64,000 nt of DNA, from contig NC_053042.1 of the NCBI RefSeq assembly GCF_003473485.1, positions 34,190,762-34,254,761 of the forward strand, in the 5' to 3' direction. Numbering within the stretch: position 1 is the stretch's first letter; each line of letters opens with the position of its first letter. Origin of the DNA: Medicago truncatula. Lineage: Eukaryota; Streptophyta; Magnoliopsida; Fabales; Fabaceae. Below are positions 978 through 50,463 of the stretch, piece after piece. Both the position numbers and the translations under genes were made by a program. The notes beneath the pieces are model-generated. The model searched no databases, was not told the origin of the DNA, and saw only the letters and a program-made list of their open reading frames with translations.

Positions 978-1807
978 CTAGTTAACTACCATTGTACTTG
1001 CATCTAGCAAATTTCCACCACTTACAACATCAACATATGGTTCAATGTAGATGTTGCTGTCAAACTGATTTGTCACTCTTTGAGAATTGTTGTCCTGCAA
1101 ATTTGGACAAACAGGAAATTAAGATGGAATATCCATATATACAAGGTGATTACAAAACTTGTAAATAAAATAAAACATACATTAGTTCCTCTGCCATCAC
1201 CTTCTTTTCCAATTGCACGTCGTTCCTTGTTAACATAATTCCTCACATCTCTTTCATTAAATGGTACATTTTCATGCCCGCCTGCATCTTTAACAAGAGA
1301 TTGAAAAGTCTTGTTGATCCTCACACCTGCATCATCATTGATTTGAATTGTCCTCTTTACATGCAAGTCCATATTCTTGTTAGCCTTGAACAACCTTGCC
1401 TTTGTAGGGCTAGTATGATGAGAATGATTAGGCTCAAATTTGTTAATGTACCACAATCCATCTGCTTTCAACTTGATACAAATCTTAGCAGGACAACTTT
1501 TTCCCATTGTCGGACGTGTCTTCAATGTACATACACTTTTCGTCACTTCAGCCCGATCTCTTGTGCATGCAAGAATTAAGTAGCATACCTCCCCATCCTT
1601 TCCTTTTCTCGATGTTCTAATCTTCCAATCAAAACCCTTTCTCAAAGCATATTCTCTATAAAATGATTTAACATCATCTATGCTAGAAAAACACATATCT
1701 GTTTTAGGCTCCCACCATGCATCTTCATTTTCAACATTAAAGTTGTCAACTTCTATGCCTTCATCATGAATACTACCACTATCCACAAAAGCATTTGGAT
1801 TATCCAT
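978..1807 (-). CDS. FAR1-domain protein without transposase domain (FRF-like)
   Basis: Two exons, 1181-1807 and 978-1094, join in frame (donor GTATGT, acceptor TTTGCAG) to give about 247 aa. Residues about 33-135 form the FAR1 DNA-binding domain: WWEPKTDMCF entry, SFYREYALRKGF, then Cys in LACTR, Cys in SCPA and the NHSHH histidines of the WRKY/GCM1-type zinc fold. The FHY3/FAR1 family descends from Mutator-like transposases, and full members continue into a MULE transposase and SWIM finger. Here the reading frame stops 38 codons into exon 2, so only the DNA-binding part exists. This matches the short FRF class, which is thought to compete with FHY3/FAR1 for promoters. Nuclear location is inferred. 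The start is the first Met of the frame; an acceptor-like TTTTGTGCAG upstream suggests a 5'-UTR intron. Confidence 0.82.
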
Positions 1808-3501
1808 GAATGTTCAATTGTGGGGGCAATTGACACCCCAAATCTGCACAAAATAACTCAAAATGTAAGCATGGACTTCGTCGAGATAAGCACGCATAAT
1901 GTACCTCACATACTTTGTCATTAGAAAGAAACATTTCAACACAACAGAAAAACATAACAGAAATATAAGAGAAAAATTGTAATCAAAGGAGGGTATCAGA
2001 TTTAAGTATTAGCAATGTCTAAGTCTGTAATCATGAAATTAAGTTGAGAAAATTAATATTGAGCATATTCATTATATAAAACCTGAATCAATTTCATTAT
2101 TTAGTGAATTCAAAAATTTAGGGTTTGTGATTTAAAATTGGGGGAAAACGAAAATGATGAAGGAACCATCTCACCCCATGATAAAAATGGAAGAATGAAG
2201 TAATGAAATGAGATAATAAGTGGGAATAAAACAAAAATGATTTGGGTTTAAGATTTTTTTTTCTATCTATTTATGAATCAAACCAACGTTTTCCTCAACC
2301 AAGGTAAAACAATAACTACAAGCTACTAAAATTCTAAAAACAAGAGTAGAGAAAGGAAAGAACCTGAGCATGAAAACGAGGAGGAACAGTGGAGGAATAC
2401 GGCGTTACGGCGGCAGCTGGAGTGACCGAAATAGCATGAGAGGCTGGCACTGCACAAAGATGAAGGAGTGACGAGAAATTATTAGTGAATGAAAGATGAT
2501 TTGTTCTTGATCATGGGAAATGACTGAATCAGAAAGAGGGAACTCAAAAGAAACAAGAGGGAAAAAGAAACGAGGGAAAGAAGGAAAGAAGAAAAGAAGA
2601 AAAGAAGGAGAAAATAAATGTAAAAAAATATATGTATTAGGTAACAGTGAATGGTGTTGTATATTTGTCTCCACTTTTGTGTATGATTATCATTTCTGAT
2701 TAGCAAACCACCTCAAGACATAGTAGGTTTTCTATAGGCACAATCTTAAACAAAAATTATTTGAGCAAATAAACAAATAAATAAATAAAAAACGAAATCT
2801 TTTGTCACGTCATTTAATCATTTTCTCTTTTAAATTTTTTATATTTGTGTTTCCAAACATTTTTTTTATTGGAATCCTCCTCGTTATGTTTGTTGGAAAT
2901 CACCTCCTTCAAATGTCAATAATTAAAATATGAATGGTAGTTCCTTAGGCAACCCATAAACGTTTGGCTATGGTAGAATCATTCGTAATTCTAGTGGCGA
3001 TTGGTTTATTGGATGCTTTGATTATTGTGATCACACTACAAACATGAATGTTAAACTGTTTGCTATTGACCACAATTTAGATTTCGCTTGGAACATTGGT
3101 CTTTTTATTGAGGAGTATTATTTAAACAACTTTTAGTTGACAACTTATGGGGACAACTATAATTTGTAAAGAAAAAATAGGTATTGTACGAAAATCAAAG
3201 CAATAGAGAGATAAATAAAAAAGAATGTGAGTATGAAAGAAAAAGTTGTAGCAAAAACATGCGCAATGTAAGTCTGACTCAATGTCAACGTTGCTTATTT
3301 TGGAAGACAATCACCCCTTAACTCACTCATATGCACCATCGGTATCCCGTATGAAGAAACACTTCTTTTATGATTGAAATCTCAATTTCAACCACACTCT
3401 TCAAGAAGGAAAAACATGCGCAAACTGGCTTGTTAAAGATGGTGCTACTTTTATGTAAATTGTTGTTGTTGTTTTTCATTCTTGTCCTTCTAAACTTAGA
3501 T
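1808..3501. other. FRF 5' flank, no other gene
   Basis: This holds the likely 5' leader and promoter of the FAR1-domain gene, with a purine-rich stretch near 2520-2610. Open frames here are low-complexity Phe/Ser/Leu peptides from that stretch and look non-coding. Confidence 0.45.
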
Positions 3502-4710: not shown

Positions 4711-4889
4711 TACAAGATAGAAAAAACTGAAGGCTGGATTAATCATATAAATGCTATTTGCTACAGACAGAATAATTAGGATAAGATAACACAATTCCGA
4801 ATTACAGATGAAAGATAAGAGATTTAGAAAATCTACAAATTTAAATCAAGATATCATGCTATCGGTCGGAGACAATTTCAAACTGGCTA

Positions 4890-5610
4890 TGATCATTCCT
4901 TAACTGCCCCTCTCAAGCTAGAGGATGGTTTGACTACTCCTAGCTTGTTCCTTAGCTGACTAAACTTCATGGTTGTTAGAGCTTTGGTCAAACAATCTGC
5001 TATTTTATTTGAGGTTGGACCATAGGCTATAGTCGCGTTATTACTCAACAACTGATCTCTGATATAGTGCACATCCACTTCTCTGTTTGAAGCAAAAGCT
5101 TAGCACTCAAATTTTCACACCACAATACACTTGTTTGAGGTATTTCAACTTTATTTCCTATAATATAGATCGGATTCAAGCTACATGTGCTGCAAGGTCT
5201 GCTAATGTCTTGTATTCTGATTCTGCCTAGATCTTGACACAACTTTTTATTTTCTAGAGGGACAAGTTATCAAACTCTGTACCAAAAATATACAATAACC
5301 TGCAAACGATTTTCTGTCGTATATATTGGTTGCCCAATCTTCATCTGAAAATCCTGAGATGTCCAAGTCTGATGATAGCTTTATGGGAAGACAATAGTCC
5401 AAGCTGGACCTTTTCTATAATAAGATGGAAATTTATAAAGACATGCTTGGATCTTTCATGAAATGTGGGATTGTGAGCTAAGTAGATGGAGGCGGGTTTG
5501 TCAAAAGTAATGCAGAAATCTTCAAACAGAAAAAAACTGTAATCTTCTGATGGTGGCCTGGTAGTGAATGAACTTGTTGGTTGAGGTTTGGAGACATGTT
5601 GACTCAATTG
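4890..5610 (-). mobile_element. Ty1/Copia retrotransposon fossil
   Basis: Two fragments on the minus strand resemble the end of Copia polyprotein (RNase H region): one carries the NPTFHERSKH block and the other VHYIRDQL, then ADCLTKAL and RNKLGVV. Only this 3' portion is visible. No LTRs, integrase or gag are seen nearby, and the piece is clearly broken with several interruptions. It is an old relic with no coding potential. Confidence 0.75.
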
Positions 5611-6144
5611 TCGGATGGTGAAAGAGATAACTGACCAGGTAGTAGGTTAAGTATACAATTCATCTACACTTGGATTCATGATCATCAAATACAAATCATG
5701 TTTCAACTCAACCCACTGCCGAACCGGTTCTTTGTCAATCTGCATCCATTGTAGGCTAGGACATATTTCTAATTAAGATTCTACCTCCTCCCTATGGCTA
5801 CCTCTCTCTAGGTCCCTCTTCATTGTAATTTTCCTGATGATTCTACTACCTCCTTCCTATGGCATTTTAGACTATAGTACATATTTCTAATTATTCTATA
5901 CACACAATTAAAAGTGTTGTTTTAATACAAAACTATCAATTACAATAGGTTGTTCAAAACTATTAAATTAACATTAGCAACAACACAGAGAACCAAAAAT
6001 ATGATAGTGAGACACTATGCATCCATGAGTAAGATTAGTGAAAAGCCAGTCAAGTTTGTTTTCGAACATCATAGCGAAGCACATGGGATGATGATGAAAA
6101 AAGAAGCCAATAACTGCAGCCAACGAAGGGAATCAAAAAAAGTA

Positions 6145-6252
6145 CAAAATAATTTGGGTCATTTCTCGATTTGTGCGTGTCATCCTTGCGCATGGGCCAT
6201 GCTGATCTTCTCTGTATCATTCCAATTTTATCGAATGTCCCCGAAGGGATAC
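6145..6252 (-). ncRNA. U6: U6 snRNA copy A, full length, diverged
   Basis: The minus strand matches plant U6 from the 5' stem (CCCTTCGGGGACATTCG) through GATAAAATTGGAATGATAC, the ACAGAGA box, the AGC triad in ATCAGCATGG, the internal stem-loop region TGCGCAAGGATGACACGC and AAATCGAGAAATG. Differences from canonical U6 include GTATCCC at the start, CCCATGCG for CCCCTGCG, and GACCC for GGTCC near the end. The 3' end reads AAATTATTTTG instead of running directly into a T stretch; a T7 run lies at 6135-6141. It may be transcribed but is probably a variant or pseudogene. It lies at the downstream end of the tandem array. Confidence 0.82.
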
Positions 6253-6272
6253 TAGAAGAAGGTATTTTCGTG

Positions 6273-6316
6273 TTATATAAAAGCTAAATAATTGCAAAGG
6301 TTAACCGATGTGGGAC
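6273..6316 (-). promoter_or_regulatory. U6-type promoter A (USE + TATA)
   Basis: The minus strand shows the plant snRNA upstream sequence element GTCCCACATCG (6306-6316) and TATATAA (6273-6279), separated by about 26 bp. This short spacing is typical of plant Pol III snRNA genes; Pol II snRNA genes use about 10 bp more. Confidence 0.85.
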
Positions 6317-6464
6317 TTATTTGGTGCGTGCGTACGTTAGACAACAAGGAAATAAAATACAGACATGCACTGCACTTACTAACTAATCAATCACTTTAAT
6401 ATATCCCAGAATAAATGAAGGTTTGTTCGTTCGGTTTCTCCATTCTCTTGAAAAGTGAAAACTA

Positions 6465-6980
6465 CTATACATAGATGTTTGTAGAATTTGTTTCCATACA
6501 TTTATGAAAACTACTGTACATAGAAATCATTGATGCTATAAGGGTAAAGCCACCCGTAAACCCAGCACCTTCCCCTTGGTCGTTGAGCCGTAAACACGTC
6601 ACTTTAAAATTACCAAGCGAGAGGGGAAGTAATCCACTCAAATTGTTGTTGGAAAGCACAATTGTATCCAAACTTGGAAACAGTTCGAACATATCCGGTG
6701 GTAATGAAGCTATCAGATTAGTAGCTTTAAAATCAATGGTGTGGAGTAACTTGGAATCACTCAAATCAGGAAAAATCCATTCTATGAGATTCAAATTATT
6801 GCTAATGTTTAGGTATCTTAAACCTAACATGACTCAAAAGCAATCATATGGGACTGACGTGAAGTTGTTATGACTAAGGTCCACAGTGTGGAGCACAATT
6901 ACGAGGGGGCGGAATTCAGGCAAAGGACCTGTGAGCGAATTGTTCCGAAGATTAAGGTGTGTGAGAATGTTGATACTGAT
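6465..6980 (-). pseudogene. LRR unit 1, truncated TMK-like fragment
   Basis: This unit starts in the middle of the LRR region: about 140 bp covering the N-terminal CKWTGV part are deleted at the GATAGG/GAAGG junction near 6982. The rest reads as in other units, from the first LRR to IYV-stop, with an open stretch at 6465-6830 that begins at the internal Met of VMLGLRYLNIS. It is not expected to encode a secreted LRR protein. Confidence 0.75.
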
Positions 6981-6990
6981 AGGAAGGAAG

Positions 6991-7073
6991 AAAAAAAAGA
7001 GTAAAACATAATTTGGACCATTTCTCTATATCATTCCTCATTCCAATTTTATCAGATGTCCTCGAAGGGATAC
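6991..7073 (-). ncRNA. Deleted U6 copy B (83 nt to end of T8)
   Basis: U6 5' region (CCCTTCGAGGACATCTG, GATAAAATTGGAATGA), then a duplicated GGAATGA, TATAGAGAAATGGTCC and a T8 run at 6991-6998. The AGC triad and internal stem-loop are missing, so it cannot act as spliceosomal U6. Its promoter is at 7094-7137, and LRR unit 1 lies just downstream. Confidence 0.8.
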
Positions 7074-7093
7074 TAGAAGAAGGCATTTCCGTG

Positions 7094-7137
7094 TTATATA
7101 AAAGCTAAATAATTGCAAAGGTTAACCGATGTGGGAC
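7094..7137 (-). promoter_or_regulatory. U6-type promoter B (USE + TATA)
   Basis: Perfect USE GTCCCACATCG at 7127-7137 and TATATAA at 7094-7100, with the same spacing as copy A. Confidence 0.82.
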
Positions 7138-7297
7138 TTATTTGGTGCGTACGTGTGTGCGTGCGTACGTTAGACAACTAGCAAATAAAATACAGACATG
7201 CACTGCACTTACTAACTAATCAATCACTTTAATATATCGCAGAATAAATGAAGGTTTGTTCGTTCGGTTTCTCCATTCTCTTGAAAAGTGAAAACTA

Positions 7298-7936
7298 CTA
7301 TACATAGATATTTGTAGAATTTGTTTCCGTACATTTATGAAAACTACTGTATAGAGAAATCATTGATGCTATAAGGGTAATGCCACCCGCAAACCCAGCA
7401 CCTTCCCCTTGGTCGTTGAGCCGTAAACACGTCACTTTAAAATTACCAAGCGAGAGGGGAAGTAATCCACTCAAATTGTTGTTGGAAAGCACAATTGTAT
7501 CCAAACTTGGAAACAGTTCGAACATATCCGGTGGTAATGAAGCTATCAGATTAGTAGCTTCAAAATCAATGGTGTGGAGTAACTTGGAATCACTCAAATC
7601 AGGAAAAATCCATTCTATGAGATTCAAATTATTGCTAATGTTTAGGTATCTTAAACCTAACATGACTCTAAAGCAATCATATGGGACTGACGTGAAGTTG
7701 TTATGACTAAGGTCCACAGTGTGGAGCACAATTAAGAGGGGACGGAATTCAGGAAAAGGACCTGTGAGGGAATTGTTCCGAAGATCAAGGTCTGTGAGTT
7801 TAGTGAGAATGTTGACACTGATAGGGATTGTACCTACTAGTGAGCTTGAAGGAAGTTTGATAGTGGTAACGCGATTCGATCGGTATATGACATCGGTCCA
7901 TTTGCAGTGTTGGGTGTTGTTTGGCAAGGGAATCAA
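7298..7936 (-). pseudogene. LRR unit 2, open 212-aa TMK-like fragment
   Basis: The frame begins just before the CKWTDV motif (CKWTGV in sister units), runs through about five LRRs including LDLRNNSLTGP and LNISNNLNLIEW, and ends ETNSTNIYV-stop. TMK receptor kinases have the same CKWT start and LRR order, but continue with more LRRs, a membrane segment and a kinase; none of that is present. This unit lacks a clear in-frame signal peptide. It is a gene fragment, not a complete receptor. Confidence 0.75.
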
Positions 7937-7970
7937 AGGAAGACACAGGTGAACGAATTGATGAAGGAAG

Positions 7971-8053
7971 AAAAAAAAGAGTAAAACATAATTTGGACCA
8001 TTTCTCTATATCATTCCTCATTCCAATTTTATCAGATGTCCACGAAGGGATAC
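7971..8053 (-). ncRNA. Deleted U6 copy C
   Basis: Same structure and the same 83-nt length as copy B, with the shared internal deletion and a T8 run at 7971-7978. The 5' stem reads CCCTTCGTGGAC. Confidence 0.8.
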
Positions 8054-8073
8054 TAGAAGAAGGTATTTCCGTG

Positions 8074-8117
8074 TTATATAAAAGCTAAATAATTGCAAAA
8101 GTTAACCGATGTGGAAC
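8074..8117 (-). promoter_or_regulatory. U6-type promoter C (USE variant)
   Basis: TATATAA at 8074-8080. The USE at 8107-8117 has one change (GTTCCACATCG), in an otherwise conserved CCCAC core, which may weaken it. Confidence 0.75.
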
Positions 8118-8269
8118 TTATTTGGTGTGTGCGTGCGTACGTTAGACAACTAGCAAATAAAATACAAACATGCACTGCACTTACTAACTAATCAATCACT
8201 TTAATATATCGCAGAATAAATGAAGGTTTGTTCGTTCGGTTTCTCCATTCTCTTGAAAAGTGAAAACTA

Positions 8270-8956
8270 CTATACATAGATGTTTGTAGAATTTGTTTCC
8301 ATACATTTATGAAAACTACTGTACAGAGAAATCATTGATGTTATAAGGGTAATGCCACCCGTAAACCCAGCATCTTCCCCTTGGTCGTTGAGCCGTAAAC
8401 ACGTCACTTTAGAATTACCAAGCGAGAGGGGAAGTAATCCACTAAAATTGTTGTGGGAAAGCACAATTGTATCCAAACTTGGAAGCAGTTCGAACATATC
8501 TAGTGGTAATGAAGCTATCAGATTAGTAGCTTCAAAATCAACGGTGTGGAGTAACTTGGGATCACTCAAATCAGGAAAAATTCATTATATGAGATTCAAA
8601 TTATTGCTAATGTTTAGGTATCTTAAACCTAACATGACTCTAAAGCAATCATATGGGACTGACGTGAAGTTGTTATGACTAAGGTCCACAGTGTGGAGCA
8701 CAATTAAGAGGGGACGGAATTCAGGCAAAGGACCTGTGAGTGAATTGTTCCGAAGAAGAAGGTGTGTGAGTTTAGCGAGAATGTTGATACTGATAGGGAT
8801 TGTACCTACTAGTGAGCTTGAAGGAAGCTTGATGGTGGTAACGCGATTCGATCGGCATGTGACACCGGTCCATTTGCAGTGGTGGGTGTTGTTTGGCAAG
8901 GGAATTAAAGGAAGACACGGGTGAACGAATTGATGAAGGAAGAAAAAAAAGAGCAA
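8270..8956 (-). pseudogene. LRR unit 3, interrupted TMK-like fragment
   Basis: The unit reads in one frame from MLFFFFLHQF through CKWTGVTC and the LRRs to IYV-stop, but two adjacent stop codons replace the EW of LNLIEW near 8582. A hydrophobic N-terminus begins upstream of CKWTGV at an ATG inside the U6-derived tail, so it resembles a signal peptide. Otherwise it is nearly identical to its sisters. Confidence 0.75.
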
Positions 8957-9025
8957 AACATAATTTGGACCATTTCTCTATATCATTCCTCATTCCAATT
9001 TTATCAGATGTCCCCGAAGGGATAC
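8943..9025 (-). ncRNA. Deleted U6 copy D
   Basis: Same 83-nt structure. The 5' stem CCCTTCGGGGAC is canonical here, and the T8 run is at 8943-8950. Confidence 0.8.
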
Positions 9026-9045
9026 TAGAAGAAGGTATTTCCGTC

Positions 9046-9089
9046 ATATATAAAAGCTAAATAATTGCAAAGGTTAACCGATGTGGGAC
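9046..9089 (-). promoter_or_regulatory. U6-type promoter D (USE + TATA)
   Basis: Perfect USE at 9079-9089. The TATA region reads TTTATATATGA in place of TTTATATAACA and is still TATA-like. Confidence 0.8.
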
Positions 9090-9175
9090 TTATTTGGTGC
9101 GTACGTGCGTGCGTGCGTACGTTAGACAACTAGCAAATAAAATACAGACATGCACTGCACTTACTAACTAATCAA

Positions 9176-9943
9176 TCACTTTAATATATCGCAGAATAAA
9201 TGAAGGTTTGTTCGTTCGGTTTCTCCATTCTCTTGAAAAGTGAAAACTACTATACATAGATGTTTGTAGAATTTTTTTTCCATACATTTATGAAAACTAC
9301 TGTACAGAGAAATCATTGATGTTATAAGGGTAATGCCACCCGTAAACCCAACACCTTCCCCTTGGTCGCTGAGCCGTAAACACGTCACTTTGGAATTTCC
9401 AAGCGAGAGGGGAAGTAATCCACTCAAATTGTTGTGGGAAAGCACAATTGTATCCAAACTTGGAAACAGTTCGAACATATCTGGTGGTAATGAAGCTATC
9501 AGATTAGTAGCTTCAAAATCAATGGTGTGGAGTAACTTGGGATCACTCAAATCAGGAAAAATCCATTCTATGAGATTCAAATTATTGCTAATGTTTAGGT
9601 ATCTTAAACCTAACATGACTCTAAAGCAATCATATGGGACTGACGTGAAGTTGTTATGACTAAGGTCCACAGTGTGGAGCACAATTAAGAGGGGACGGAA
9701 TTCAGGCAAAGGACCTGTGAGTGAATTGTTCCGAAGATCAAGGTGTGTGAGTTTAGTGAGAATGTTGATACTGATAGGGATTGTACCTACTAGTGAGCTT
9801 GAAGGAAGCTTGTTGGTGGTAACGCAATTCGATCGGCATGTCACACCGGTCCATTTGCAGTGGTGGGTGTTGTTTGCCAAGGGAATCAAAGGAAGACACG
9901 GGTGAACGAATTGATGAAGGAAGAAAATAAAGAGTAAAACCAT
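9176..9943 (-). pseudogene. LRR unit 4, open 255-aa fragment with signal-like N-terminus
   Basis: This is the longest frame of the array. It begins MVLLFIFFLHQFVHPCLPL, a plausible secretory signal of about 20-25 residues, followed by NNTHHCKWTGVTC and about five LRRs. It reads past the usual IYV stop into EEKKFYKHLCIVV-type sequence. The upstream U6-derived T run is broken (TTTATTTT), so this is the only unit without a T8 barrier before the start codon. No kinase or membrane segment follows. It could make a small secreted LRR peptide if transcribed by Pol II, but this is untested. Confidence 0.6.
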
Positions 9944-10007
9944 ATTTGGACCATTTCTCTATATCATTCCTCATTCCAATTTTATCATATGTCCCCGAAA
10001 GGGATAC
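9921..10007 (-). ncRNA. Deleted U6 copy E, no T8 terminator
   Basis: Shares the internal U6 deletion with its sisters, but the terminal T run reads TTTATTTT, so an early Pol III stop is less likely. The 5' stem has an extra base (CCCTTTCGGGGAC). Confidence 0.75.
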
Positions 10008-10027
10008 TAGAAGAAGGTATTTCCGTG

Positions 10028-10071
10028 TTATATAAAAGCTAAATAATTGCAAAGGTTAACCGATGTGGGAC
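10028..10071 (-). promoter_or_regulatory. U6-type promoter E (USE + TATA)
   Basis: Perfect USE at 10061-10071 and TATATAA at 10028-10034. Confidence 0.82.
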
Positions 10072-10223
10072 TTATTTGGTGCGTGCGTGCGTACGTTAGA
10101 CAACTAGCAAATAAAATACAGACATGCACTGCACTTACTAACTAATCAATCACTTTAATATATCGCAGAATAAATGAAGGTTTGTTCGTTCGGTTTCTCC
10201 ATTCTCTTGAAAAGTGAAAACTA

Positions 10224-10862
10224 CTATACATAGATGTTTGTAGAATTTGTTTCCATACATTTATGAAAACTACTGTTCAGAGAAATCATTGATGTTATAA
10301 GGGTAATGCCACCCGTAAAGCCAGCACCTTCCCCTTGGTCGTTGAGCCGTAAACACGTCACTTTAGAATTACCAAGCGAGAGGGGAAGTAATCCACTCAA
10401 ATTGTTGTGGGAAAGCACAATTGTATCCAAACTTGGAAACAGTTCGAACATATCTAGTGGTAATGAAGCTATCAGATTAGTAGCTTCAAAATCAATGGTG
10501 TGGAGTAACTTGGAATCATTCAAATCAGGAAAAATCCATTCTATGAGATTCAAATTATTGCTAATGTTTAGGTATCTTAAACCTAACATGACTCTAAAGC
10601 AATCATATGGGACTGACGTGAAGTTGTTATGACTAAGGTCCACAGTGTGGAGCACAATTAAGAGGGGACGAAATTCAGGCAAAGGACCTGTGAGTGAATT
10701 GTTCCGAAGATCAAGGTGTGTGAGTTTAGTGAGAATGTTGACACTGATAGGGATTGTACCTACTAGTGAGCTTGAAGGAAGCTTGATGGTGGTAACGCGA
10801 TTCGATCGGCATGTGACACCGGTCCATTTGCAGTGGTTGGTGTTGTTTGGCAAGGGAATCAA
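10224..10862 (-). pseudogene. LRR unit 5, open 212-aa TMK-like fragment
   Basis: Open from just before NNTNHCKWTGVTC to NIYV-stop, with about five LRRs as in unit 2. The frame is intact, but there is no downstream receptor part. Confidence 0.75.
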
Positions 10863-10896
10863 AGGAAGACATGGGTGAACGAATTGATGAAGGAAG

Positions 10897-10979
10897 AAAA
10901 AAAAGAGTAAAACATAATTTGGACCATTTCTCTATATCATTCCTCATTCCAATTTTATCAGACCTCCCAAAAGGGATAC
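10897..10979 (-). ncRNA. Deleted U6 copy F
   Basis: Same 83-nt layout with T8 at 10897-10904. The 5' stem is altered (CCCTTTTGGGAGGTC), which would change the 5' hairpin. Confidence 0.78.
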
Positions 10980-10999
10980 TAGAAGAAGGTATTTCCGTG

Positions 11000-11043
11000 T
11001 TATATAAAAGCTAAATAATTGCAAAGGTTAACCGATGTGGGAC
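11000..11043 (-). promoter_or_regulatory. U6-type promoter F (USE + TATA)
   Basis: Perfect USE at 11033-11043 and TATATAA at 11000-11006. Confidence 0.82.
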
Positions 11044-11195
11044 TTATTTGGTGCGTGCGTGCGTACGTTAGACAACTAGCAAATAAAATACAGAGATGCA
11101 CTGCACTTACTAACTAATCAATCACTTTAATATATCGCAGAATAAATGAAGGTTTGTTCGTTCGGTTTCTCCATTCTCTTGAAAAGTGAAAACTA

Positions 11196-11834
11196 CTATA
11201 CATAGATGTTTGTAGAATTTTTTTCCATACATTTATGAAAACTACTGTACAGAGAAATCATTGATGTTATAAGGGTAATGCCACCCGTAAACCCAGTACC
11301 TTCCCCTTGGTCGTTGAGCCGTAAACACGTCACTTTAGAATTACCAAGCGAGAGGGGATGTAATCCACTCAAATTGTTGTGGGAAAGCACAATTGTATCC
11401 AAACTTGGAAACAGTTCGAACATATCTGGTGGTAATGAAGCTATCAGATTAGTAGCTTCAAAATCAATGGTGTGGAGTAACTTGGGATCACTCAAATCAG
11501 GAAAAATCCATTCTATGAGATTCAAATTATTGCTAATGTTTAGGTATCTTAAACCTAACATGACTCTAAAGCAATCATATGGGACTGACGTGAAGTTGTT
11601 ATGACTAAGGTCCACAGTGTGGAGCACAATTAAGAGGGGACGGAATTCAGGCAAAGGACTTGTGAGTGAATTGTTCCGAAGATCAAGGTGTGTGAGTTTA
11701 GTGAAAATGTTGATACTGATAGGGATTGTATCTACTAGTGAGCTTGAAGGAAGCTTGATGGTGGTAACGCGATTCGATCGGCATGTGACACCGGTCCATT
11801 TGCAGTGGTGGGTGTTGTTTGGCAAGGGAATCAA
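11196..11834 (-). pseudogene. LRR unit 6, open 212-aa TMK-like fragment
   Basis: Same frame as units 2 and 5, starting before NNTHHCKWTGVTC and ending NSTNIYV-stop. Small amino-acid differences (LVDTIP, NSLTSP, SGLHPL) distinguish it. It is the most upstream unit of the array in the direction of the promoters. Confidence 0.75.
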
Positions 11835-11868
11835 AGGAAGACACAGGTGAACGAATTGATGAAGGAAG

Positions 11869-11951
11869 AAAAAAAAGAGTAAAACATAATTTGGACCATT
11901 TCTCTATATCATTCCTCATTCCAATTTTATTGGATGTCCCCGAAGGGATAC
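11869..11951 (-). ncRNA. Deleted U6 copy G
   Basis: Same 83-nt layout with T8 at 11869-11876 and a canonical CCCTTCGGGGAC 5' stem. Confidence 0.8.
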
Positions 11952-11971
11952 TAGAAGAAGGTATTTCCGTG

Positions 11972-12015
11972 TTATATAAAAGCTAAATAATTGCAAAGGT
12001 TAACCGATGTGGGAC
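11972..12015 (-). promoter_or_regulatory. U6-type promoter G (USE + TATA)
   Basis: Perfect USE at 12005-12015 and TATATAA at 11972-11978. This is the outermost promoter of the array. Confidence 0.82.
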
Positions 12016-12175
12016 TTATTTGGTGCGTGCGTGCGTACGTTAGACAACTAGCAAATAAAATACAGACATGCACTGCACTTACTAACTAATCAATCCCTTT
12101 AATGCAGCGCAGAATAAATGAAGGTTCGTTCGTTCGGTTTCTCCATTCTCTTGAAAAGTGAAAACTACTATACAG

Positions 12176-12708
12176 AGAGATGTTGTTATTGATATTTTTA
12201 ATCAATGTAAAACCTTTGTTGCATCAATATATGCATTTGATGAAAGGAAATACGGTGTTAAGCAAGAAATAGCGTATGCAAAAAATTTAAAATTAGACAT
12301 TAGCAAAATAAAATAAAGCAAAGCAGTGAGTTGACAAACCTTTTCAGTTCTGATAATCACTTTGATGTGGTGAAACCGAAAACAAAACATTAAAAAATAA
12401 TCACATGCATATAATGTGTAAAAGCAAAAAACAAAAAAAAACAAAAAAAATACCTCCAAATTCTAAGTGATAAAATTATCAGCAAAAACAATGGAGGCGG
12501 TGTGATCGGGGTTCATTATCCGATCATAATCATTGCAAATGATTCTAATGTCTATTGGGATATTAATTCGAACGAATTCGCAGCGAAATATCTTCCCCTC
12601 CTAGTTGGCCTTTCACTTGGATCATCATTGACACACATTATGGCCATCTCTATGCACTTTTATTTCCTCTTTTGAATCATTATTGAAAGGGGCTTCTTTT
12701 TTCGCAGT
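12176..12708. other. Junction region between array and NLR relic
   Basis: The array ends abruptly near 12175. The following 0.5 kb is AT-rich and shows no gene. A normal CC-NBS-LRR gene would have its coiled-coil start here, but I cannot read one. Confidence 0.4.
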
Positions 12709-13803
12709 GTGTCACATGAGCTCAATGCTCGATTCTCTATGGGATATTTTCCCTATTTGTGCACAAGGCATCAACTAGACAGGAAGATAAAAAAGATGTC
12801 AGAAGAGATTTCTGAGGTAATAGCAGAAGGAAAATTTGACAACCCTTTTTACCATGCTGCTTCTCAAGGGACGGTCACGCCATTTGGTAGAGGATATGAG
12901 GCCCTAGACTCTAGAACATCAATATTGAATGAGATTATGCTAGAATTGAAGAATCCTAACATCTTTATGATTGGGGTGCATGGGATGGGTGGAGTGGGCA
13001 AGACAACACTGGTGAAAGAGTTAGCATGGAAAGCTGAGAATGATGGGTCATTTAGTTCTGTAGTTATGGCTACCATCACCGATTCTCCAGATGTGAAAAA
13101 AATTCAAGGTCAAATTGTTGATGCCTTGGATATGAGATTTAACAAGGAGATGATAGAAGGAAGAGCAATACAGCTACGAAAAAGGATAACCAAGGAGAAG
13201 AGTATTCTTGTTATTCTGGATGATATATGGGGTAGACTTGAATTGGAAGAGGTGGGGATTCCTTGTGGTGATGATCACAAAGGATGCAAGTTGGTGGTGA
13301 TATCCGAAGATCTTAATGTGTTGAATCGTGAGATGGGCACTCAAAAAGAATTGACTTGAAATTTTACATGAGCAAGATAGTTGGAAATTGTTTGAGAAAA
13401 TGGCAGGTGATGTTGTTCAAGATTTCAATATAAAACCAATTGCAGTAAAAGTTTCCAGATTGTTACAGTGGCAAAGTCTTTGAGGAAAAAAAAATCTTTG
13501 ATTGGAAAAGTACATTGAATGAGTTAGAGAGATTTGATCAAAAAGGGTTGCATAAGAAAATCTATTCTACTTTGGAATTGAGTTATAATTGCTTAGAAAG
13601 TGACGAGCTAAAGTCACTCTTCTTATTCATTGGTTCGTTTGGTCTAGATTACGTCCACGCTTTTGGACTGATATCAGGTTATTGGGCGTTGGGCTTAGAT
13701 AGACACGCTCACACATTGACAGATGCAAGAGCCAGATACTACAAGTTAATAAGCGACCTTAAGGCCTCTTCGCTGTTACTTGACTCTGAAACTGAATTGG
13801 TAA
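12709..13803 (+). pseudogene. CC-NBS-LRR resistance gene, truncated and frameshifted
   Basis: The NB-ARC core is clear: GMGGVGKTTLVKEL P-loop, SILVILDDIWGRLELEEVGIP kinase-2, and CKLVVISEDLNVL where a functional gene usually has TSR. Upstream, GYFPYLCTRHQLDRKIKKM matches the linker after the coiled coil, but the coiled coil is missing. A frameshift near 13358 moves the frame to LEILHEQDSWKLFEKMAGD. The GLPL region is deleted near 13450. The frame resumes with NELERFDQKGLHKKIYSTL and the NB-ARC end. The sequence then stops where the U6 inverted-repeat arm begins (about 13804); no LRRs remain. The family detects pathogen effectors in the cytosol; this copy cannot. Confidence 0.88.
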
Positions 13804-13866
13804 GTGCAGTGCATGTCTGTATTTTATTTCCTAGTTGTCTCACGTTCGCACGCACGCACCAATTAA

Positions 13867-13910
13867 GTCCCACATCGGTTAACCTTTGCAATTATTTAGC
13901 TTTTATATAA
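13867..13910 (+). promoter_or_regulatory. U6-type promoter H (USE + TATA)
   Basis: Perfect USE GTCCCACATCG at 13867-13877 and TATATAA at 13904-13910, on the plus strand and facing away from the array. Confidence 0.85.
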
Positions 13911-13930
13911 CACGGAAATACCTTCTTCTA

Positions 13931-14038
13931 TTATCCCTTCAATGACATCCGATAAAATTGGAATGATACAGAGAAGATTAGCATGGCCATGCGCAACAAT
14001 GACACGCACAAATCGAGAAATGACCCAAATTATTTTTT
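13931..14038 (+). ncRNA. U6: U6 snRNA copy H, full length, diverged
   Basis: Retains GACATCCGATAAAATTGGAA, the ACAGAGA box, GATTAGCATGG with the AGC triad, GACACGCACAAATCGAG and a T6 terminator at 14033-14038. The 5' stem is broken (CCCTTCAATGAC instead of CCCTTCGGGGAC), and the internal stem-loop region reads GGCCATGCGCAACAATGAC, one base short and mispaired. The promoter looks better preserved than the RNA, so a transcribed pseudogene is likely. Confidence 0.82.
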
Positions 14039-14454
14039 ACTTTTTTTTCTTCCTTCATCAATTCGTTCACCTGCGTCTTCCTTTGATTCCCTTCGTTGGC
14101 TGCGGTTATTGGCTTCTTTTTTCATCATCCCATGAGCTTCGCTATGATGTTTGAAAACAAACTTGACTGGCTTTTCACTAATCTTACTCATGGATGCATA
14201 GTGTCTCACTATCATATTTTTGGTTCTCTGTGTTGTTGCTTATGTTAATTTAATAGTTTTGAACAACCTATTGTAATTGATAGTTTTGTGATAAAACAAC
14301 ACTTTCATTTGTGTGTATAGAATAATTAGAAAATATGTCCTATAGTCTATAATGCCATAGGAAGGAGGTAGAAGAATCATCAGGAAGATTACAATGAAGA
14401 AGGACATAGAGAGGGAGAGAGCCATAGGGAGGACCCTCGAAATTGTTTGTTGTT

Positions 14455-29646: not shown

Positions 29647-29983
29647 GGCTTAATTGCACTTTTGGACCCCTATCTTTCCAGAAGTTGCGGTTATGGACCC
29701 CTATCTTTCCAGAAGTTGCGGTTATGGACCCCTAACTAATTTAAATACAAAACAGCTCCCTATGTTTTGATTCTTTGGCAGTTTTGGACCCCAAGGAAGA
29801 AAAAAGAATGACATGTGGCACCTCACTTAGGGTGCCACATCAGCGTTGACCGAGTCAACAATGGACTGGGGGTCCAAAACTACCAAAGAATCAAAACATA
29901 GGGGGCTATTTTGTATTTAAATTAGTTAGGGGTTCATAACCGCAACTTTTTAAAAGATAGAGATCCAAAAGTGCAATTAAGCT
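29647..29983. mobile_element. Mutator-like MITE, copy 1 of a three-copy family
   Basis: The ends GGCTTAATTGCACTTTTGG are inverted. The flanks TAAATATTA and TAACTACTA agree at 7 of 9 bases. A 31-bp internal duplication (GACCCCTATCTTTCCAG...) is unique to this copy. Confidence 0.8.
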
Positions 29984-34449: not shown

Positions 34450-35118
34450 TTTCCTCCGTTTTAAAATGAGTGTCGTTTCAACCAAAAAAAATTGTTTTAA
34501 AATGAATGCCACTTTCAGTTTCCAATGCAATAATAACTTTGTTTTTTCAACTGTACCCTCCAATTAGGTTAAATTGCATTTTTGGTCCATTAACTATTTA
34601 GGTAGTATCGCTTTGGTCTCTTTATTAAAATTCGATTTATTTTGGTCTCTTAACTTCTCTATGTTATACATTTTGGTCATTTCCGTTAGTTTTAATTCAA
34701 AAACGTTAGGTTTTCTTTATCTTATTCTTCTCTTTTTCATCTTTATATCATCTCCATCAACCTTCAACAACAAGAATCCCAGAGAAATTCCAGAAGAAAA
34801 TGAAAAAAACCTAACATTTTTGAATTAAAACTAATGGAAAATACCAAAATGTGTAACATAGAGAAGTTAAGGACCAAAATAAATCGAATTTTAATTAAAG
34901 GATCAAAGCGATACTACCTAAATAGTTAAGGGACCAAAAATGCAATTTAACCCTACAATTAATACTCTGCACACTACTTCCAAAGTAATTACTTTAAAAA
35001 CTAACCAATAATTAATAAGGATAATTTGGTAAAATAACCATTATCTTTCTTTTAATCATTGCATTTCTTAATATATGTGTAAACACCTAAAACGACACTC
35101 GTTTTGAAACGGATGGAG
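34450..35118. mobile_element. Stowaway-like element with a nested MITE
   Basis: The imperfect TIRs share CCGTTTTAAAATGAGTGTCG (right inverse CCGTTTCAAAACGAGTGTCG), flanked by TA. The element is split by the Mutator-like MITE at 34567-34952. It is the same end family as 21395-22724. Confidence 0.7.
34567..34952. mobile_element. Mutator-like foldback MITE nested in 34450-35118
   Basis: TIR GGTTAAATTGCATTTTTGG with long arms. The flanks CTCCAATTA and CTACAATTA (8 of 9 bases) form a 9-bp duplication of the host element. Confidence 0.88.
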
Positions 35119-36423: not shown

Positions 36424-36737
36424 GGCTTAATTGCACTTTTGGACCCCTATCTTTCTAAAAGTTGCGGTTATGGATCCCTAACTAATTTAAATACAAAATA
36501 GCCCCCTATGTTTTGATTCTTTGGCAGTTTTGGACCCCCAGTCCATTGTTGACTCAGTCAACGCTGACGTGGCACCCTAAGTGAGGTGCCACGCGTCAAT
36601 TTTTTTTTTTTTTTTTTGCCTTGGGGGGTCCAAAACTGCCAAAGAATCAAAACAGGGGGCTGTTTTGTATTTAAATTAGTAAAGGGTCTATAACCACAAC
36701 TTTTAGAAAGATAGGGGTCCAAAAGTGCAATTAAGCC
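36424..36737. mobile_element. Mutator-like MITE, copy 3
   Basis: Same family as 29647 and 30639. The flanks TAACAATTT and TAACAACTT match at 8 of 9 bases. The interior holds a long T run near 36600. Confidence 0.86.
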
Positions 36738-40785: not shown

Positions 40786-41163
40786 GGGTAAATACCTCTT
40801 TTCGTCCCTGTAATATTAGCGAACTTCGATTTTAGTCCTGTAAAAAAAAAGATTTAGATTTTGTCCCTGTAATTTCATATTCTTCCACTTTTGGTCTCTC
40901 CTTTCATCAAGTCAACAGAATCTCCATAAATTACGTCCCTGTAATTTCAGATTCCTCCCACTTTTAGTTCTTGTAATTTCAGATTCCTCCACTTTTGGTC
41001 CCTCATTTTATGTGCCATGTATGCAGATTCTTCTTACGTGGTGGAATGAGGGACCAAAAGTGGAAGAATCTAAAATTACAGGGACAAAATCTAAATCTTT
41101 TTTTTTACAGGAACTAAAACCGAAATTTGCTAATATTACAGAGACGAAAATAGGTATTTACCC
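40786..41163. mobile_element. Mutator-like foldback MITE
   Basis: TIR GGGTAAATACCTMTTTTCGT with arms over 100 bp and a perfect 9-bp duplication AAAAAATAA on both sides. Confidence 0.88.
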
Positions 41164-50199: not shown

Positions 50200-50463
50200 C
50201 TCTTTCGGGACAAAAGTGATCAATCTTCGTCGGGGTAAAATAGTGAGTAGCCGACATGGGGAAGTGATCAACCATTGGGATAAGTTTAAATCTATTTTTT
50301 TTTACTCCATAAACTTTTTACCGTGGGTAAAAAGATTTGTCTTGGGGTATAAAAAAAAACTAGATTTAAATTTAGCCCAAGGGTTGATGATGTATTTTCC
50401 CCATGAAGGTTGCTCACTATTTTACCCCAAGATGATTGGTCACCTTTTAACCCAAAGAGGGAG
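50200..50463 (+). repeat. Hairpin 1, arms about 115 nt
   Basis: CTCTTTCGGG...GGGGTAAAATAGTGAG on the left pairs with CTCACTATTTTACCCC...CCCAAAGAGG on the right. The centre is a small perfect hairpin, CTTTTTACC-GTG-GGTAAAAAG. There are mismatches along the arms, but the pairing is continuous. No TIR-style end or target duplication is obvious. Confidence 0.8.

Follow-up and report, generated by a model that had tools for sequence, protein, structure and literature searches.

The window analyzed here, contig C1:34190762-34254761 (64,000 nt), contains a tandem array whose units join a promoter and an internally deleted copy of the U6 small nuclear RNA (snRNA) gene to a fragment of a leucine-rich repeat (LRR) receptor kinase gene. 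Rfam matches in the window to MIR2670, MIR2619, MIR5284, and MIR5298, which are families of Medicago truncatula, point to that species as the probable source. The array consists of six direct repeats on the minus strand, from 12174 down to 6472, with lengths in that order of 972, 972, 974, 980, 972, and 833 bp. A period of about 972 bp had been proposed in an earlier reading made from the sequence only (hereafter, the sequence-only reading), and the spacings found here (833, 972, 980, 974, 972, and 972) agree with it. Each unit begins with U6 5' flank (about 220 bp) that includes an upstream sequence element (USE) and a TATA box; then come the U6 remnant, U6 3' flank (about 50 bp), an LRR fragment (562 bp, shortened in unit 6), and finally a junction tail (about 59 bp). 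Pairwise identity of the units was 96.0-97.5% over aligned bases, so that pairs differ by 2.5-4%; repeats of such length at 96-97.5% identity are not chance. The array appears to be young because the mean inter-unit distance is 0.032. The features of the locus are as follows:

Unit 1, 11203-12174, minus strand, 972 bp: promoter; U6 remnant 11951 to ~11869; U6 3' flank; LRR 11823-11262; junction tail.
Unit 2, 10231-11202, minus strand, 972 bp: U6 remnant 10979 to ~10897; LRR 10851-10290.
Unit 3, 9257-10230, minus strand, 974 bp: U6 remnant 10007 to ~9921 with a broken T-run; LRR 9878-9317.
Unit 4, 8277-9256, minus strand, 980 bp: U6 remnant 9025 to ~8943; LRR 8897-8336 with two adjacent stops; last base of TATA changed.
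Unit 5, 7305-8276, minus strand, 972 bp: U6 remnant 8053 to ~7971; LRR 7925-7364; one change in USE (8107).
Unit 6, 6472-7304, minus strand, 833 bp: U6 remnant 7073 to ~6991; shortened LRR, 6983-6531, with one stop.
Last promoter and full-length U6-like gene, 6148-6471, minus strand: U6 at 6250-6148; Rfam U6 score 97.7 bits, against 113.1 bits for the genome's best copies; 7 mismatches over 100 positions when compared with the common U6 of the genome.
3' flank of the last U6, 5804-6103, minus strand: counterpart at 14113-14413 in the inverted copy (93-95%).
Inverted copy of the U6 locus, 13797-14413, plus strand: USE at 13867; U6 at 13930-14034 with a changed 5' stem-loop (10 mismatches and one gap to the common U6, three in that stem-loop); U6 3' flank without LRR.

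That the same deleted U6 follows six promoters was borne out by alignment. The deletion begins just past the ACAGAGA region, which now reads AUAGAGA, and reaches to within the 3' part of U6; at the break a short sequence, GGAATGA, is locally duplicated. We take the lost middle to comprise the U4-pairing stretches, the AGC triad, and the internal stem-loop. Six of the seven minus-strand copies carry this deletion and therefore have no complete U6 body, and none of the six remnants is among the nine Rfam matches above threshold. At its 3' end the remnant reads GGTCC, in agreement with a U6 gene at 35.06 Mb of the same contig, and both full-length neighbours read GACCC. This suggests that the remnant derives from a different U6 copy or that the ancestor of both neighbours changed later. 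Elsewhere in the genome, a U6 cluster with four full-length, high-scoring copies and a fragment within 9 kb was found at C7:38851446-38860375, and three weaker U6 copies lie within about 20 kb at C4:8292291-8312779.

Seven minus-strand promoters with USE and TATA, as described before, were reproduced, with USE perfect in six and changed once in unit 5. USE lies at -66 and TATA at -31, with a gap of 24, in all seven. An eighth USE-TATA pair precedes the inverted full-length U6. In a reference set of eight intact U6 loci, both motifs matched the patterns in five (gap of 24 in four and of 23 in one), and the remaining three have a USE with the TATA pattern unmatched. A review (PMC9845283) gives the USE consensus as RTCCCACATCG and places USE one helical turn nearer to TATA in U6 and U3 genes than in genes of RNA polymerase II (Pol II). 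On the basis of this rule and of the array spacing, the promoter geometry is of the RNA polymerase III (Pol III) type, in line with the sequence-only reading. A run of eight thymidines (T8), at which that reading expected the RNAs to end, follows the remnant in five of six; unit 3 reads T3-A-T4. An additional T4 lies within the remnant of every unit.

A USE-TATA pair by itself is not a mark of a U6 gene, because a scan found the two motifs at a distance of 15-36 bp in 120 places of the genome (reversed control, 0), including LTR-like (long terminal repeat) stretches away from U6 genes. Visual comparison assigned at least 13 of the scan matches listed to U6 copies, including 7 at the array locus. 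Two of five stretches inspected away from U6 genes hold paired long repeats, 94-97% alike, with the motifs about 4.7 kb apart in an LTR-like layout. Dispersed repeats with a perfect USE and TATA 24 bp downstream were also observed (L065 at C3:9.38 Mb, L067 at C1:18.80 Mb, L066, L068, and L069). In a second repeat family with USE and TATA (GGATAGATAAGACTCTTGATAAGAG), some copies continue with GGTATYAGAGC, which is reminiscent of a primer-binding region. Promoters of the snRNA type within LTRs perhaps deserve separate attention.

By alignment, the LRR fragment starts about 50 bp past the T-run and ends where the U6 5' flank starts. It comprises about 188 codons before that join, has neither a membrane span nor a kinase, and falls short of a full ectodomain. 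The fragment matched Pfam LRR_8 (E=2.5e-13) and, in PDB, TMK3 (1.6e-33, query 19-208 of 213) and TMK1 (2.1e-32, 22-208); FLS2 and other LRR kinases outscored both in the same search. These matches support the TMK-like LRR identity proposed earlier for the sequence after each U6, but its first ~50 bp are U6 3' flank, and in unit 6, nearest to the seventh promoter, the start of the LRR fragment is gone. The nearest LRR relatives elsewhere in the genome are two pieces on contig C7, L053 and L057 (87-89%). L053 is 89% alike over 217 bp and its frame ends soon after; L057 is 87% alike over 185 bp and has a frame without the 5' part, followed by a kinase frame. Both look broken, as judged from open frames without intron models. 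A third relative, L055 (71%), has the longest frames among the relatives, 494 aa for the LRR and 390 aa for the kinase.

Only in unit 3 does an in-frame ATG precede the LRR; it arises via a shift in the T-rich U6 tail. In the resulting open reading frame (9943-9176, minus strand, 255 aa), a chance frame, the U6 tail and terminator region supplies the ATG and a hydrophobic leader (MVLLFIFFLHQF...). This unit illustrates that a captured coding fragment can by chance acquire a start codon and a hydrophobic leader from a T-rich Pol III terminator.

Searches of the 430-Mb genome (42 contigs), in which the best candidates were scored, gave no second U6-LRR fusion and placed the deleted U6 remnant at the array locus only. 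The sequence-only reading had proposed such a comparison, naming the lack of a related fusion, together with a lack of transcripts, as the mark of a neutral local amplification, and the first of these two is what we found within this genome. Among the papers listed by literature searches, none has a title on such a fusion. A paralogous locus with a common, intact U6 lies 0.87 Mb away (L058, C1:35.06 Mb). On its left side it shares three collinear blocks with the window (4767-4905, 5537-5749, and 6095-6479), and it matches the inverted copy at 13802-14057 and 14286-14421, with a short piece between. The U6 3' flank of this locus continues without LRR, and the same is true of both full-length neighbours in the window. 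An apparent LRR stub after the U6 of the inverted copy was rejected, since alignment with its relatives and the 35.06-Mb locus identified it as U6 3' flank. In addition, 15853-15998 matches positions 1743-1884 of L058 (79%) in direct sense, at odds with the orientation of the adjoining inverted copy.

Changes among the LRR copies were counted against the majority sequence, with shared changes counted once. The LRR frame contained 50 changes (36 replacement, 11 silent, and 3 stops), and the numbers expected without constraint are 36.5, 11.8, and 1.8 under equal rates, or 35.4, 13.2, and 1.5 with transitions doubled. Selection on an LRR protein was rejected, as the changes fit zero constraint under both rate settings. 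The ratio of nonsynonymous to synonymous substitution rates (dN/dS) for the array consensus was 0.38 against L055, 0.99 against L053, and 1.07 against L057, where the alignment extends slightly past the clearly matching stretch. Changes per site amounted to 50/562 in the LRR, 13/74 in the U6 remnant, 2/20 in USE and TATA, and 13/223 in the whole 5' flank. Four Fisher tests showed no significant difference for USE and TATA against the LRR (p=0.70) or for all U6-derived parts (p=0.90) and, in one of the four, more changes in the remnant than in the LRR (p=0.035). Selection on the remnant or the promoter was also rejected, because the four tests gave no clear constraint, with low power for short motifs. 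A long unchanged stretch, 65 columns within the LRR, was not taken as evidence of constraint, given a permutation test with p=0.20.

Folding was compared with shuffled sequences. The z values of the six remnants ranged from +0.69 to +2.53, none being better than its shuffles, and the full-length neighbour, the sole control, gave +0.78. In the best fold, the 5' hairpin is lost in units 5 and 6 and is absent from the full-length neighbour too. Folding was given zero weight because that neighbour scores no better. Across these comparisons, a selected function is not supported, and neither is the functional family of short RNAs suggested by the sequence-only reading, given the lack of constraint among copies and of a second fusion in the genome.

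The array is very probably a chimeric U6 pseudogene that was recently multiplied in tandem through unequal exchange and is perhaps transcribed but not selected, because the intact paralogue has no LRR in its flank, the fusion was found only here, and the LRR changes as an unconstrained sequence would. The alignments show that a U6 gene with its promoter was duplicated locally and that one copy lost its middle. The junctions show the 562-bp TMK-like ectodomain piece inserted between the 3' flank of this copy and the U6 5' flank that follows; repair of a DNA break or ectopic template switching may have put it there. The composite unit would then have multiplied as direct repeats underwent unequal crossing-over. 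The presence of promoter and flanks in the units makes copying at the DNA level most likely. The promoters would persist because the array is young, and short U6-like RNAs ending at the T-run could be made as pseudogene transcripts without a selected function.

Several observations weigh against this explanation. All seven promoters retain the geometry of active genes, which makes transcription of the remnants plausible. The whole 5' flank has fewer changes than the LRR, although not significantly (p=0.19, Fisher), and the 86 changes in total give almost zero power for motifs as short as USE and TATA. That the remnant has more changes is partly due to their clustering in unit 2 and to an indel in unit 3 that is likely misaligned, and we therefore read this result as "not slower". 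Furthermore, we infer both the unequal exchange and the route of LRR capture.

The USE, TATA, and gap positions shared by all units, the T8 run in five of six, and the six copies themselves would also suit a young Pol III family with a selected role. Its shortened U6-like RNAs, about 70-83 nt long, would keep both ends and the part beside the 5'-splice-site box without the U4-pairing middle and could act, for example, as decoys for U6-binding proteins. We regard this as very unlikely, since the remnant is not conserved among copies, the U6 middle is gone, and the searches placed the remnant nowhere else; the slightly lower, nonsignificant number of changes in the 5' flank would fit such a family, and the folding values neither support it nor give a verdict.

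Silencing of receptor kinase relatives by chimeric U6-LRR transcripts of the array, or by small RNAs made from it, is very unlikely. In its favour, each unit has 3-47 exact 21-mers in common with L053 and 2-23 with L057, the longest run being 42 nt, and double-stranded RNA of the U6 part could in principle arise from the inverted U6 copy. However, the inverted copy has no LRR, the nearest relatives look broken, and L055 has zero 21-mers in common with any unit. The LRR reads in the sense direction and, in five of six units, comes after T8, so read-through RNA would be sense and, as we infer, rare. Chimeric RNAs acting on a TMK parent gene, as raised in the sequence-only reading, are unlikely for the same reasons.

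Retroposition, with a chimeric U6 pseudogene formed by template switching on a long interspersed nuclear element (LINE) and then duplicated, has a very slim chance of being correct. Mammalian snRNA pseudogenes made in this manner are described (PMC4476161). Every unit carries the U6 5' flank (~220 bp, with promoter) and 3' flank, both of which would be missing from a copy made of RNA, and a poly(A) run was not seen at the LRR end inspected by eye. Multiplication by faulty assembly, to which high-identity tandem repeats are prone, is hardly credible because each unit has its own substitutions.

The array resembles plant U6 genes with type 3 Pol III promoters in USE, TATA, spacing, start position, T-run, and the 5' and 3' parts of U6, and differs from them in the missing U6 middle of six of seven copies and the failure of all six remnants to reach the Rfam threshold. 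The Arabidopsis survey PMC545797 reports small tandem snRNA gene groups with copies judged as pseudogenes by their deletions. The array shares the tandem grouping and deleted copies with these clusters, which include U1-U4, U2-U5, U2, and U5, whereas its unit adds a protein-gene fragment and is present in six copies. RNA-gene sequence joined to other sequence is also seen in LINE-made mammalian snRNA pseudogenes (PMC4476161) and Magnaporthe chimeric retroelements (PMC2104539); compared with these systems, the array units keep promoter and flanks. As for TMK-type LRR receptor kinases, the ~188 codons match the N-terminal LRR region, and the unit differs in having no transmembrane part, no kinase, and an unconstrained frame.

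If neutral, the array would be a worked example of how an RNA gene, its promoter, and a receptor piece fuse into one unit and multiply recently, as well as a warning that an intact USE-TATA pair is no proof of a working gene. If transcribed, it would provide a natural test of a U6 promoter acting on a shortened U6.

Other features of the window were also noted. Between the array and the inverted U6 copy, a frame at 12676-13359 (plus strand) encodes the beginning of an NB-ARC domain (Pfam E=4.1e-21) and stops inside it. A frame at 1073-1813 (minus strand) has a FAR1 DNA-binding domain (Pfam E=1.3e-11) and perhaps belongs to a transposon-derived gene. Additionally, five Rfam matches to microRNA precursors (MIR2670, MIR2619 twice, MIR5284, and MIR5298) were identified at 50230-50430, 36496-36665, 29750-29911, 40971-41081, and 34724-34814; these are long hairpins that may stem from inverted-repeat transposons.

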